From Pelomonas sp. Root1444 (lineage in GTDB: Bacteria; Pseudomonadota; Gammaproteobacteria; Burkholderiales; Burkholderiaceae_C): a DNA stretch of 64,000 nucleotides. The notes beneath the pieces are model-generated. The model did not search any database. It saw only the letters and a list, made by a program, of their open reading frames with translations, and had not been told where the DNA came from. The translations under genes and the position numbers were made by a program. Position 1 is the stretch's first letter; every line of letters begins with the position of its first letter. The stretch lies in NCBI RefSeq assembly GCF_001426885.1, contig NZ_LMFP01000001.1, positions 188,834 through 252,833 of the forward strand, read 5' to 3'. Below, piece by piece: positions 33,269-48,769 of the stretch.

Positions 33269-35761
33269 CTAGAAGCTGTATTTCGCGCCCACCGCCACGC
33301 TGCGCGGTGCGCCCGGCGCATAAAACGTCGCATGGCGCAGCGGCCGGTCGCCGTGGGCGTTGGCCGCGAAAGGGCGGCTCTGGAAGTTGCCCGCGGCGTC
33401 GAAACCCGTGGGGCCGAGCTGCGCGGCTGTGGCGTAGGCGCGATCGAGCAGGTTGTTCAACTGGACGAACAGCTTCAGGCCCAGCGTCGGCTTCCAGGCC
33501 GCGTCTATGTTGATCACCGCATAGCCCGCGCTGCGGCCCGCGCCGAGGTAGTACGTGCCATCGGGCCGGTGCTGGCCGTTCTCGTTGCCGCGCGCTGCGG
33601 CGCCGCTCATCGCGACCGCATCGGCGCCGAGCGTCCACGCATCGCCGAGGTCGAGATCGGCATGCAGCTTGAGCATGCGGCGTGGCAGCAGTGGGATGCG
33701 GTCACCGGGCCGGATGTCGATGTTGCCGTCCACGCCGGGCCAGCCTGCCAGGGCCGCATCGTTGCGGCTGTTGGACGCGCCGTTGACCATTTCCGCGCTG
33801 CGGTAGGTGGCGTCCAGCAGCGTCAGGTTCGCGCCCGCCGTCAGGCCCTTGGCGGGCTGGGCGCTCAGGCCCAGTTCCACGCCCTGGCGGCGCGTCTTGC
33901 CGAAGTTCTTGAAGTAGCCGAAGCCGGCCGCGTCGTCGGCGACGAAGAGCAGGTCGTCGCGGTTGTCGGCGCGGAAGACGCCCAGGCTCCACGCCAGGCC
34001 CCGGCCCGCGCTGGACCGGATGCCGGCTTCGACGGTGGTCGTGACGACCTGTTTGAGCGGCGGGTCGCCGGCGAAGGCGTTGGGCAGCTTGCAGGGGTTG
34101 GCCGGGTCGGCGCAGCCCAGCTCGATGGACGACGGATGGCGGCTGCCCTGGCTCCAGCTGGCCCAGGCGTTGAGGCCGGCCGCGGGCGCGAAGGTCAGGC
34201 CCAGCGCCGGGTTGAAGCGGCTGAAGCGGTGGTTGCCGTGCAGCGACCCCGGCCCGCCGCCGGGCGTGATGGCGTCGCGGTTGCGCACGCTGCTGCGGTT
34301 GTGGCGGCCGGACAGTGTCAGGTGCGCGTCGCGCGCCACGGTGAGCACGGTGCTGGCGAAGACGCTGACCGTGTGCGTGCGGCCCGACAGATCCACGCGG
34401 GTGTCGTAGGGCGCGTCGTCCACGCTGCCGCCGCTGGCGCCGTCGCCGAAGGCGCCCACGCCGGTGATGCTGCGGTCGGGGTTCAGGTAGCCCAGCTCCG
34501 AGCCCTGCGTGAAGTGGCTGTGGCTGGCATCCAGCGCCAGGCCGGCGAGGGACTGGCTCTTCAGGCCGAACAGCCGGCCGTCGTGGCCGAGCTGGACGGT
34601 GAAGCCCTGGCTGCGCTGGCGCGTGCGGGTCTGGTGGATGACGCCGTTGCATTTCTCGCCCGGCTCGTCCTGCAGCAGGGCCTGGGCGATGCAGCGCCAT
34701 CTCGGGAACGGCGTGTTGGCCGCGCTCTCGCCGGCCGCGGGGAAGCCGCTGTAGCCCGCGGCCGCGAGGGCGGCGCGCTCGGCGGCGTTGGGCTGGTAGA
34801 GCGACTGGTCGAGCGCGTCGTCGTTGAGGTCGCCGTTGTAGGTGGCGGTGGTGATGCGCCGCGCGTAGGCGTGGCCGCCGAGCGTCCACTGCGCGTCCAG
34901 GCTGTGCGACAGCGCGAGGTTGAGCAGCACCGAGCGGTTGCGCGTGATGTCGGGCCGCGTGTAGACGCTGGCGCGGTCGCGTTCGAGCAGCTGCTGCGCC
35001 TGCAGGCCGTTGCCGTGCAGCCGGGTGCGGGCCAGCGCCGCGGTCAGCGTGAGGTCGGTGTCGCCGCTGCGCTGGCCCAGCTTGGCGAACAGCTGGCTGG
35101 CGTGGGACGGCGAGTCGGCCCGCCAGCCGCGCTCGTCGAACTGGTGGCCGGTGACGAACCAGTGCCGGCCGTCGGCCGCGCTGCCGCCGTGCTCGAACTC
35201 GACGGCGCCACGGCGGTGCGAGCCGGCCAGCGCCTGCAGCGACGTGCCCGGGTGCTTGAGGCCGTCCTTGGTCTGCACGGCCAGCGCGCCGCCCAGCGTG
35301 TTCAGGCCGAACAGCGGGTTGGAGCCGGGGTTGAGCGACAGCGACGCGATGGCGGACTTGGGGATGAGATCCCAGCTGACGACGTCGCCGAAGGGTTGGT
35401 TCAGCCGCACGCCGTCGAGATAGAGCGACAGACCTTGCTGCGTGCCCAGCAGCGGCGAGGCGGTGTAGCCGCGGAAGTTGACGTCGGGCTGCAGCGGGTT
35501 GCCCTGCACCTCGTTGAGGTGGACGCTGCCCAGGCGCCGGTTCAGGAAGCTGGCCAGGTCCGGCGCCTGGCTGCGCTCGATGTCCACGGACCGAGCGGTT
35601 TGCACATGCGCCGGGATCATGTCGCGCGCCACGTCCACGCCCGGCACGGGCGACAGCGCGACGACCTCGACGCGCTCCAGCCGGACTTGTGCCTGGGCGA
35701 CCGCAGGCACGGCCAAGGCCAGCGCGGCCCAGCGGAGCCGCTGAAAGGCGCGCTGCTTCAT
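33269..35761 (-). CDS. TonB-dependent receptor in the PQQ/alcohol-oxidation operon
   Basis: This 830-residue outer-membrane receptor has a signal peptide (MKQRAFQRLRWAALALAVPAVAQA), then a TonB-box-like VEVVAL and a plug with SFLNRRLGSVHLNEVQ, PDVNFRGYTASPLLGTQQGLSLYLDGVRL and NTLGGALAVQTKDG. The barrel ends VAVGAKYSF. It is the last gene of a five-gene minus-strand operon (cytochrome c, binding protein, PqqU-like receptor, beta-propeller, this gene), 5 bp after the propeller. It is not the PQQ receptor type. A role in taking up a metal chelate, for example a lanthanide or iron complex needed by the dehydrogenase, is inferred from context only. Confidence 0.9.
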   Translation of the reverse strand: MKQRAFQRLRWAALALAVPAVAQAQVRLERVEVVALSPVPGVDVARDMIPAHVQTARSVDIERSQAPDLASFLNRRLGSVHLNEVQGNPLQPDVNFRGYTASPLLGTQQGLSLYLDGVRLNQPFGDVVSWDLIPKSAIASLSLNPGSNPLFGLNTLGGALAVQTKDGLKHPGTSLQALAGSHRRGAVEFEHGGSAADGRHWFVTGHQFDERGWRADSPSHASQLFAKLGQRSGDTDLTLTAALARTRLHGNGLQAQQLLERDRASVYTRPDITRNRSVLLNLALSHSLDAQWTLGGHAYARRITTATYNGDLNDDALDQSLYQPNAAERAALAAAGYSGFPAAGESAANTPFPRWRCIAQALLQDEPGEKCNGVIHQTRTRQRSQGFTVQLGHDGRLFGLKSQSLAGLALDASHSHFTQGSELGYLNPDRSITGVGAFGDGASGGSVDDAPYDTRVDLSGRTHTVSVFASTVLTVARDAHLTLSGRHNRSSVRNRDAITPGGGPGSLHGNHRFSRFNPALGLTFAPAAGLNAWASWSQGSRHPSSIELGCADPANPCKLPNAFAGDPPLKQVVTTTVEAGIRSSAGRGLAWSLGVFRADNRDDLLFVADDAAGFGYFKNFGKTRRQGVELGLSAQPAKGLTAGANLTLLDATYRSAEMVNGASNSRNDAALAGWPGVDGNIDIRPGDRIPLLPRRMLKLHADLDLGDAWTLGADAVAMSGAAARGNENGQHRPDGTYYLGAGRSAGYAVINIDAAWKPTLGLKLFVQLNNLLDRAYATAAQLGPTGFDAAGNFQSRPFAANAHGDRPLRHATFYAPGAPRSVAVGAKYSF

Positions 35762-35766
35762 GACGC

Positions 35767-47205: not shown

Positions 47206-47245
47206 GTTGAAGGGCCTGCCAACACCCCACCGCAGGAGACACCCC

Positions 47246-48769
47246 ATGACTGTTTACGCCGCACCCGGCGCCGCCGGCGCCAAGATCGCCTACAAGCCCC
47301 GCTACGACAACTTCATCGGCGGCAAGTTCGTGCCGCCGGTCGAGGGCCAGTACTTCGACGTGCTCTCGCCGATCAACGGCAAGGTCTACACGCAGGCCGC
47401 GCGCTCCGGCGCCCAGGACATCGAGAACGCGCTGGACGCCGCCCATGCCGCCGCCGCGCAATGGGCCGCCACGGCGCCGGCCGAGCGCGCCAACATCCTG
47501 CTGAAGATCGCCGACCGCATCGAGCAGAACCTGGAGCTGCTGGCCTACGCCGAGACGGTGGACAACGGCAAGCCCATCCGCGAGACGCTGAACGCCGACA
47601 TCCCGCTGACGGCAGATCACTTCCGCTACTTCGCCGGTTGCGTGCGCGCGCAGGAAGGCTCGCTCAGCGAGATCGACGGCCACACCATCGCCTACCACTT
47701 CCACGAGCCGCTGGGCGTCGTCGGCCAGATCATCCCGTGGAACTTCCCCATCCTGATGGCGGCCTGGAAGCTGGCGCCGGCGCTGGGCGCGGGCAACTGC
47801 GTCGTGCTCAAGCCGGCCGAGAGCACGCCCATCAGCATCCTGGTGCTGGCCGAGCTGATCGCCGACCTGCTGCCCGCGGGCGTGCTGAACATCGTCAACG
47901 GCTTCGGCAAGGAAGCCGGCACGCCGCTGGCAACCAGCAAGCGCATCGCCAAGATCGCCTTCACCGGCAGCACGGCCACCGGCCGGCACATCGCGCAGGC
48001 CGCGGCGGCCAATCTGATCCCGGCCACGCTGGAGCTGGGCGGCAAGAGCCCCAACCTGTTCTTCGACGACGTGATGGCCGAGGACGACGCCTTCCTCGAC
48101 AAGGCCATCGAGGGCCTGGTGCTGTTCGCGTTCAACCAGGGCGAGGTCTGCACCTGCCCGAGCCGCGCGCTGATCCAGGAAGGCATCTACGACCGCTTCA
48201 TGGAGCGGGCGCTCAAGCGCGTGGCGGCCATCAAGCAGGGCAACCCGCTGGACACCGACACGATGATGGGCGCGCAGGCCTCGGCCATGCAGATGGACAA
48301 GATCCAGACCTACCTGGCGCTGGGCAAGGAGGAGGGCGCCAAGGTGCTGATCGGCGGCGAGCGCGCGCAGCTGGGCGGCGACCTGGCGGGCGGCTACTAC
48401 ATCCAGCCGACGCTGTTCCAGGGCCACAACCAGATGCGCATCTTCCGCGAGGAGATCTTCGGCCCGGTGCTGGCGGTGACGACCTTCAAGACCGAGGCCG
48501 AGGCGCTGCAGATCGCCAACGACACGCCCTACGGCCTGGGCGCCGGCGTGTGGACGCGCGACGGCAGCCGCGCCTACCGCCTGGGCCGCGGCATCCAGGC
48601 CGGCCGCGTGTGGACCAACTGCTACCACGCCTACCCGGCGCATGCGGCCTTCGGCGGCTACAAGGAGTCCGGCATCGGCCGCGAGACGCACAAGGACATG
48701 CTGGACCACTACCAGCAGACCAAGAACCTGCTGGTCAGCTACTCGCCGAACGCGCTCGGGTTCTTCTGA
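47246..48769 (+). CDS. exaC: NAD-dependent aldehyde dehydrogenase, ExaC/AldA type
   Basis: This 507-residue cytoplasmic enzyme oxidises acetaldehyde-type products of the periplasmic dehydrogenase to acids. Motifs are the NAD-binding IIPWNFPI, Rossmann FTGSTATG, general base Glu in LELGGKSPN, catalytic Cys in [11 protein letters not shown] (Cys pair) and [10 protein letters not shown]. The C-terminal YSPNALGFF fits the ExaC/acetaldehyde dehydrogenase group. The ATG at 47246 with GGAGAC is clear; the long upstream frame is spurious. It is transcribed divergently from the dehydrogenase, each from a sigma-54 promoter. Confidence 0.95.

Follow-up and report, generated by a model that had tools for sequence, protein, structure and literature searches.

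Canonical PqqB, a protein of pyrroloquinoline quinone (PQQ) biosynthesis, is an iron-dependent hydroxylase. The described alcohol-oxidation system closest to the one considered here is the ped cluster of Pseudomonas putida KT2440 (PedE, PedF, PedG, PedH, and PedA1A2BC); the accessible text of PMC12997753 assigns to this strain LuxR-type and two-component regulators and pqq genes of its own. Uptake of PQQ is represented by PqqU (YncD) of Escherichia coli, and importers of this kind are reported to be widespread in the accessible text of PMC12124388. Here we analyze a 64-kb stretch of the Pelomonas sp. Root1444 genome (contig NZ_LMFP01000001.1), the whole of which we call the window, and in it a locus where a PedH-type PQQ alcohol dehydrogenase, a predicted PqqU, and a lone pqqB (the orphan pqqB) lie together with sigma-54-like promoter sites. 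We consider it probable that this alcohol-oxidation regulon of the host imports PQQ instead of making it and that it was converted in place from a PQQ-making regulon. With some reservation, we also favor a more specific reading, in which a biosynthesis operon became an import operon and PqqB outlived its pathway, with a new active site and a new metal-dependent function tied to PQQ use or alcohol oxidation.

Results

The host genome (5.89 Mb, rated 100% complete) gave no match to PqqC in a profile search and no PqqE over the cut-off (best score 46.9 bits, cut-off 381), and no complete pqqABCDE set was found elsewhere in it. Both models work on related bacteria: PqqC is over its cut-off in 32 of 150 family genomes, and PqqE reaches 505 bits on two congeners. 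PqqB is over its cut-off in 33 of the 150 family genomes. In 31 of these, PqqC passes its cut-off as well; the other two are the host and its congener G030, with PqqBs scoring 310 to 312 bits versus 370 to 422 for the rest.

A PqqB match occurs in 10 of the 20 genus genomes, and in nine it is of the orphan type (87 to 100% identity; the window protein is 87 to 90% identical to eight genus-group orthologs). Eight of these nine genomes are without PqqC. The only genus members with PqqC are G150 and G155, where it stands beside non-orphan pqqB copies, with PqqE close by: a 55% copy in G150 and a 45% copy in G155, a congener that has both the locus described here and a pqqB-C-E set elsewhere. A second, partial PqqB copy occurs in G164. 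Among the 20 genus genomes, a PQQ alcohol dehydrogenase over the cut-off occurs in nine, and these are precisely the nine with orphan PqqB, a complete match among related and not independent genomes. Outside the genus, no orphan PqqB was seen among 399 genomes of the order, in a search where the host's own copy was the sole match from the genus (696 bits, next 330). A scan of named genomes with two short N-terminal patterns only, which distant kin could escape, returned eight orphan loci, five under the titles Roseateles or Pelomonas and three from metagenome-assembled genomes titled Comamonadaceae or Burkholderiales, and one further weak, unrelated match. Seven or eight of these loci carry genes already counted in the genus group, and from this kinship we take the host to belong to Roseateles in the broad sense. 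No report of an orphan PqqB was found in the open-access literature, most subscription papers lying outside that search.

A first-pass annotation of the window, made from the DNA alone, listed pqqB among the genes of the locus. The gene is there as an intact open reading frame (ORF); what the annotation missed is that it is a lone, diverged copy, with pqqA and pqqC/E missing from its two sides. In an alignment of nine orphans and 60 canonical PqqBs from the order, collected by tblastn, 58 columns were invariant in all 60 canonical sequences, and 12 of these differed in all nine orphans. When each canonical PqqB is left out in turn, it differs at two of the otherwise invariant columns at most, and the same limit holds when six canonical clades or singles are left out; the most isolated canonical PqqB has its nearest neighbor at 61% identity, close to the orphan's 59%. 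The replacements, in P. putida numbering, include Q90R, D92H, Y168H, N271H (R in one orphan), and N272H. Histidines are gained at three positions in all nine orphans and at a fourth in eight, and His93, His269, Asp88, and the three zinc cysteines are kept. The accessible part of the 2008 structural paper (PMC2294125) gives C19, C21, C24, and N272 as the zinc ligands of PqqB and places H93, H269, and Y169 (position 168 by our count) beside the cavity. By this comparison, the ligands of the orphan zinc site may have changed from three Cys plus Asn to three Cys plus His, with further histidines near the cavity, and the protein is probably no longer a PQQ-biosynthetic hydroxylase. An AlphaFold model of the orphan (mean pLDDT 54.6) retrieves PqqB structures first in Foldseek and is too poor for side chains.

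The orphans form one clade (support 100/100) nested among the canonical PqqBs, inside a 19-row group (also 100/100). The stem of the clade measures 0.8 changes per column, and several forks further inside the group are less sure. Their mean ratio of nonsynonymous to synonymous substitution rates (dN/dS) is 0.23 (36 pairs, range 0.06 to 0.35; Nei-Gojobori, own script), the mark of purifying selection. Such a burst of change followed by constraint would fit a new function better than decay. Selection on pqqB can also be argued because genes are missing on both sides of it while pqqB itself is kept. Because the orphan clade nests in the PqqB tree and PqqC accompanies nearly all family PqqBs, the change would have run from a PQQ-making locus to the present one.

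The window was compared with 11 loci that have canonical pqqB (L150, L151, and L156 to L164), most of them picked because they lie close by in the PqqB tree. In L160, genes for a cytochrome c-550 and a binding protein are divergent from an AcoR-like gene (61% identity) that runs directly into pqqA, pqqB, pqqC, and pqqE; pedH (81%) and exaC (74%) lie within the same 20 kb, and sigma-54-like sites stand before the c-550 gene, pqqA (about 80 bases upstream), and pedH. L163 has the c-550, binding-protein, AcoR, and pqqB-C-E genes and L162 the AcoR and pqqB-C-E genes; in both, AcoR and pqqB-C-E share one strand, and a 1.4-kb gap separates AcoR from pqqB. The AcoR-like relatives upstream of the pqq genes in these three loci are 55 to 61% identical, and the searched stretches of the remaining eight gave no AcoR-like gene above 50% identity. 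Of eight canonical loci searched for pqqA, six had a recognizable copy ahead of pqqB; none was recognized in the 166-base gap before the window pqqB.

The predicted importer has E. coli PqqU as its nearest solved chain (Table 1), with 276 of 588 aligned positions identical in the stretch compared. It matches E. coli PqqU at 10 of 11 checked PQQ-contact positions, with K274 kept and Y99 replaced by Phe. Since the PqqU signature in the accessible text of PMC12124388 is Y/F/W99, R304, and R365, Phe at 99 is accepted, and the window protein carries the signature as F, R, and R. The E. coli variant printed there as N447E falls on a position that is not Asn in the chain; it was taken as N477 and left uncounted. 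Because the pocket is kept and the genome has neither PqqC nor PqqE over the cut-off, PQQ scavenging by the host, proposed in the first-pass annotation, is well supported as a prediction.

The further suggestion that the metal might be imported fared less well. Glu at PqqU position 274 has been proposed to allow metal co-import (PMC12124388, accessible text). The window PqqU has Lys there, as do all 28 tabulated PqqU loci (26 different genes; 18 of the 20 genus genomes are represented by their best match, and the 80 matching family genomes by the 10 best), and co-import through a K274-to-E variant was rejected. Nor is the second TonB-dependent receptor another PqqU: its sole PDB matches at an E value of 0.01 are two PqqU chains (60 to 61 bits), and in each of two alignments it agrees with PqqU at just one of the 11 pocket positions, not the same one both times. 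PqqU scores at least 676 bits in 14 of the 20 genus genomes, and four lower-scoring copies also keep Lys274, R304, and R365; four more distant genus copies, one of them cut short, have Thr for N477. Four genus genomes (G154, G158, G162, and G165) have a PqqU of 730 to 747 bits and no PQQ alcohol dehydrogenase over the cut-off; importers without known clients are also described in the accessible text of PMC12124388. One of the four, G158, is without orphan PqqB as well; within 10 kb it has exaC (91.5%), an AcoR-like gene at 44%, and PqqU (L153).

The locus had been described as a sigma-54-controlled regulon, and it holds both -24/-12 sites and an activator with domains of the sigma-54/AcoR type. 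A sigma-54-like pattern, refined after the sites had been seen, has four matches on the two strands of the window, all correctly oriented at pedF, pqqB, pedH, and exaC; in 60 trials with first-order random sequences, the matches averaged 1.0 and never exceeded 3. With the plain consensus and one mismatch allowed, the window has three sites (two at this locus) against 2.8 expected, which is chance level, and with a looser consensus it has 34 against 23. On these counts, the motif alone is unconvincing. Conservation of the promoters across orthologs appears more telling, each of the four sites being present in every aligned locus, window included (Table 1). An element TGTGCC-N5-GGAGCA lies upstream of both the pedF and the pqqB promoters. 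Together, the conserved sites and the activator domains argue for sigma-54 control.

Among solved structures, the window dehydrogenase is nearest to 6zcv (823 bits) and 6zcw (811 bits), which we take to be P. putida PedH, followed by 1flg (652 bits), presumably Pseudomonas aeruginosa ExaA, and by 4mae (375 bits) and 6dam (362 bits); the listing itself says quinoprotein ethanol dehydrogenase. As first described, the enzyme has the lanthanide-type D-x-D motif, with D320 and D322 in WDFDG, where ExaA has WDFSG; WDFDG is present in all six Roseateles-type dehydrogenases and in the L160 relative. In a tree with four reference chains only, the window enzyme groups with PedH and apart from the calcium enzyme ExaA (support 90/90, below the tool's starred level). 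Lanthanide use is likely, judging from sequence. The enzyme is the genome's only PQQ alcohol dehydrogenase over the cut-off. A second quinoprotein-like propeller about 63 kb upstream of the window (L050, G000 C1:120000-131000, at about 5458-7062) scores 58 to 66 bits with TIGR03075, under the cut-off, and may be another PQQ user.

All genes named at the locus in the first-pass annotation are present in the window as intact ORFs; two of its labels did not hold. The binding protein called XoxJ-like matches generic SBP_bac_3 models only, with a weak PDB search and a poor AlphaFold model (mean pLDDT 35.5); the XoxJ/MxaJ label is left undecided, and we name the protein PedG-type by position, from its adjacency to PedF. 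The propeller called YncE-like scores 229 bits with TIGR03866 (cut-off 287), far above the 59 bits of the YncE model (cut-off 400).

The pedF, PedG-type, pqqU, propeller, and second TonB receptor genes run in that order on the minus strand. The AcoR-like gene and pqqB are divergent from this run, the HiPIP gene and pedH follow beyond them, and exaC is divergent again. This order is kept in other Roseateles loci to the extent of their contigs or stretches. The alpha/beta hydrolase-like gene between pqqB and the HiPIP gene was seen in one of the eight named loci (L054) and is strain-variable; its product is probably accessory.

Table 1. Features of the alcohol-oxidation locus (coordinates are those of the window)
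Feature	Position	Strand	Basis
Second TonB-dependent receptor	33269..35761	-	Pfam plug and barrel; 69-81% identity in 6 other Roseateles loci
Beta-propeller, PQQ-catabolism-associated type (TIGR03866-like)	35767..36702	-	90-93% in 6 other Roseateles loci
PqqU, predicted TonB-dependent PQQ importer	36718..38844	-	612 bits to 9c4o/6v81; pocket residues
Periplasmic binding protein, PedG-type by position	38876..39697	-	PF00497; after pedF; 61.7% to L160, 56.7% to L163
Cytochrome c-550 PedF	39694..40170	-	TIGR04494 203.5 bits, cut-off 122
Sigma-54-like promoter of pedF operon, TGGCATGTGGCTTGC	40228..40242	-	Present in 8/8 loci
Possible activator site TGTGCC-N5-GGAGCA upstream of pedF	40252..40268	-	Sequence element
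AcoR-like sigma-54 activator	40409..42496	+	GAF, sigma-54 AAA, and Fis domains; weak PAS match
Possible activator site TGTGCC-N5-GGAGCA upstream of pqqB	42566..42582	+	Sequence element
Sigma-54-like promoter of pqqB, AGGCACGGGTCTTGC	42612..42626	+	Present in 9/9 loci
Orphan PqqB, altered active-site residues	42663..43598	+	TIGR02108 310 bits, cut-off 245
Alpha/beta hydrolase-like protein, between pqqB and HiPIP gene	43662..44864	+	PF00326, weak
High-potential iron-sulfur protein (HiPIP)	44877..45194	-	PF01355
PedH-type PQQ alcohol dehydrogenase, 582 aa, WDFDG	45208..46956	-	TIGR03075 742.5 bits, cut-off 480
Sigma-54-like promoter of pedH	47023..47037	-	Present in 6/6 loci
Sigma-54-like promoter of exaC	47191..47205	+	Present in 6/6 loci
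Acetaldehyde dehydrogenase ExaC	47246..48769	+	NF050026 932 bits, cut-off 900

Some neighbors of the locus vary. In six of the eight named loci (L053, L054, L056, L057, L058, and L059; in L054 at 10933-12673), the orphan pqqB is followed by genes for an ExbB-like protein (PF01618 at 21.2 bits, under the cut-off of 22.9), a possibly ExbD-like protein (by eye), and a 163-aa membrane protein; the sequence of L060 stops within the first of these genes, and no match to the trio was found in the window or in L055. The trio is perhaps an energizer or motor. In L055 (10933-13014), the gene after pqqB instead encodes a membrane protein that has FMN-binding and 4Fe-4S domains and looks NosR-like by eye. 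In L053, L058, and L059, genes for a histidine kinase and a LuxR-type response regulator lie near pedH, between the trio and the HiPIP gene, and this pair had no match in the window. Beyond exaC, the window encodes a PEP-CTERM-like small protein (48776-49429) and then a glycerophosphodiester phosphodiesterase-like protein (49547-50824), both by eye from translations.

Discussion

We conclude that a working scheme for this locus can be proposed. An alcohol or aldehyde is the probable signal for the AcoR-like activator, which would switch on the four sigma-54 promoters. PqqU would carry PQQ across the outer membrane, the PedG-type protein may help its delivery, and PedH would oxidize periplasmic alcohols with PQQ and a lanthanide. 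Electrons would exit via PedF, perhaps also via HiPIP, and ExaC would oxidize the resulting aldehyde. As to its origin, the starting point would be a regulon like that of L160, from which pqqA, to one side of pqqB, and pqqC-E, to the other, would have been lost. Behind pedG, pqqU and a TonB receptor would have been added. The orphan pqqB would then be the remnant of a pqqABCDE operon that once lay behind the same activator, kept under selection with a rebuilt metal and substrate site. Our guess is that its product is a cytosolic metal-binding protein of the metallo-beta-lactamase (MBL) fold that handles PQQ or a by-product of alcohol oxidation.

Several observations weigh against an importing regulon converted in place. 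PqqU scores 769 bits over the whole of NF041535, under the NCBI equivalog cut-off of 1200; this cut-off is passed by none of the 20 genus genomes and by one of 14 control genomes, and it may have been set for near relatives of E. coli PqqU. PqqA had no match anywhere in the host genome, but the controls likewise gave none, and PqqD was not searched for. PqqU-like receptors (E value of 1e-100 or better) are found in 80 of the 150 family genomes, including, when read by hand, 24 of the 32 with PqqC; because they are common in PQQ makers, an importer alone is no proof of auxotrophy. On the side of synteny, L160 is the only one of the 11 canonical loci with AcoR directly before pqqA-pqqB, and no sigma-54-like site was found before its exaC. 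The gaps in L162 and L163 leave room for an ORF of about 400 codons on the opposite strand, and neither a pqqA nor a correctly oriented sigma-54-like site was recognized in them. The long stem may blur the exact placement of the orphan clade. Lastly, a propeller relative of 31 to 35% identity lies near pqqE in six of the 11 canonical loci, because of which the window propeller may be an old member of the locus rather than a gain, although it may also be new there or have moved.

The alternative that survives best accepts a new PqqB and gives it a substrate distinct from PQQ, such as an aldehyde adduct or a lactone formed in alcohol oxidation, on which it would act as an MBL-fold hydrolase. We hold this to be possible, if less than even in its chances. 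The gained histidines could build a different metal site, pqqB shares its promoter type with pedH and exaC, and no inner-membrane transporter is among the recognized genes of the cluster, so that PQQ may not reach the cytosol; set against this, the metal ligands can only be guessed at, and the predicted structure is of low confidence. It is unlikely that the orphan is still a canonical hydroxylase, serving an unrecognized, shortened PQQ route or finishing imported precursors. It does pass the PqqB equivalog cut-off and keeps His93, His269, Asp88, and the zinc cysteines, but Q90, D92, Y168, N271, and N272, invariant in all 60 canonical sequences, are replaced, the genome has no PqqC or PqqE over the cut-off to work with, and G155 keeps its orphan despite a separate canonical pqqB beside pqqC and pqqE.

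We give very little credence to the idea that pqqB is a functionless, decaying relic: it does occupy the place of the biosynthetic operon of L160, and its long stem branch is what lost constraint would produce, but nine open copies persist at 87 to 90% identity to the window copy with low dN/dS, all nine with the sigma-54-like site, and the flanking genes are gone on both sides while pqqB is not. Equally improbable is a strain that makes PQQ with diverged genes missed by the models and uses PqqU merely to recapture what leaks; the coexistence of PqqU-like receptors with PqqC in the family would allow it, but eight separate orphan-PqqB genomes are without PqqC, and the host is without PqqE over the cut-off as well.

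If the conversion from making to importing PQQ is real, a cofactor user went from synthesis to scavenging under the same regulator and with the same client enzyme. The orphan PqqB would then be a natural and well-bounded variant for asking what the PqqB fold does once its pathway is gone. Because importer, likely client enzyme, and shared promoters occur together here, the link between them is testable in named Roseateles strains.

The locus overlaps only in part with the systems described so far. It shares with the P. putida ped cluster a PedH-type enzyme, the PedF cytochrome c-550, a binding protein in the place of PedG, and a PQQ-associated propeller, and it differs from that cluster in its sigma-54 AcoR-like activator, in having PqqU in the operon, and in its orphan PqqB. 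With E. coli PqqU, the window importer has whole-length homology and the PQQ pocket in common; unlike E. coli PqqU, it sits in one regulon with its likely client enzyme. An importer near pqq genes is also found in four Burkholderiales with PqqU beside PQQ biosynthesis (PMC12124388, accessible text), and G150 has PqqU and pqqB on opposite strands, about 7 kb apart. In the four Burkholderiales, as described there, the genes share one orientation and the biosynthetic genes are kept, whereas in the window pqqB alone is left. That pqqB has in common with canonical P. putida PqqB (1xto, 4z67, and 6e13) its family, the zinc cysteines, His93, and His269, and it departs from it in having no PqqC or PqqE partner found over the cut-off, in the replacement of 12 invariant positions, and in the exchange of the zinc ligand N272 for His.

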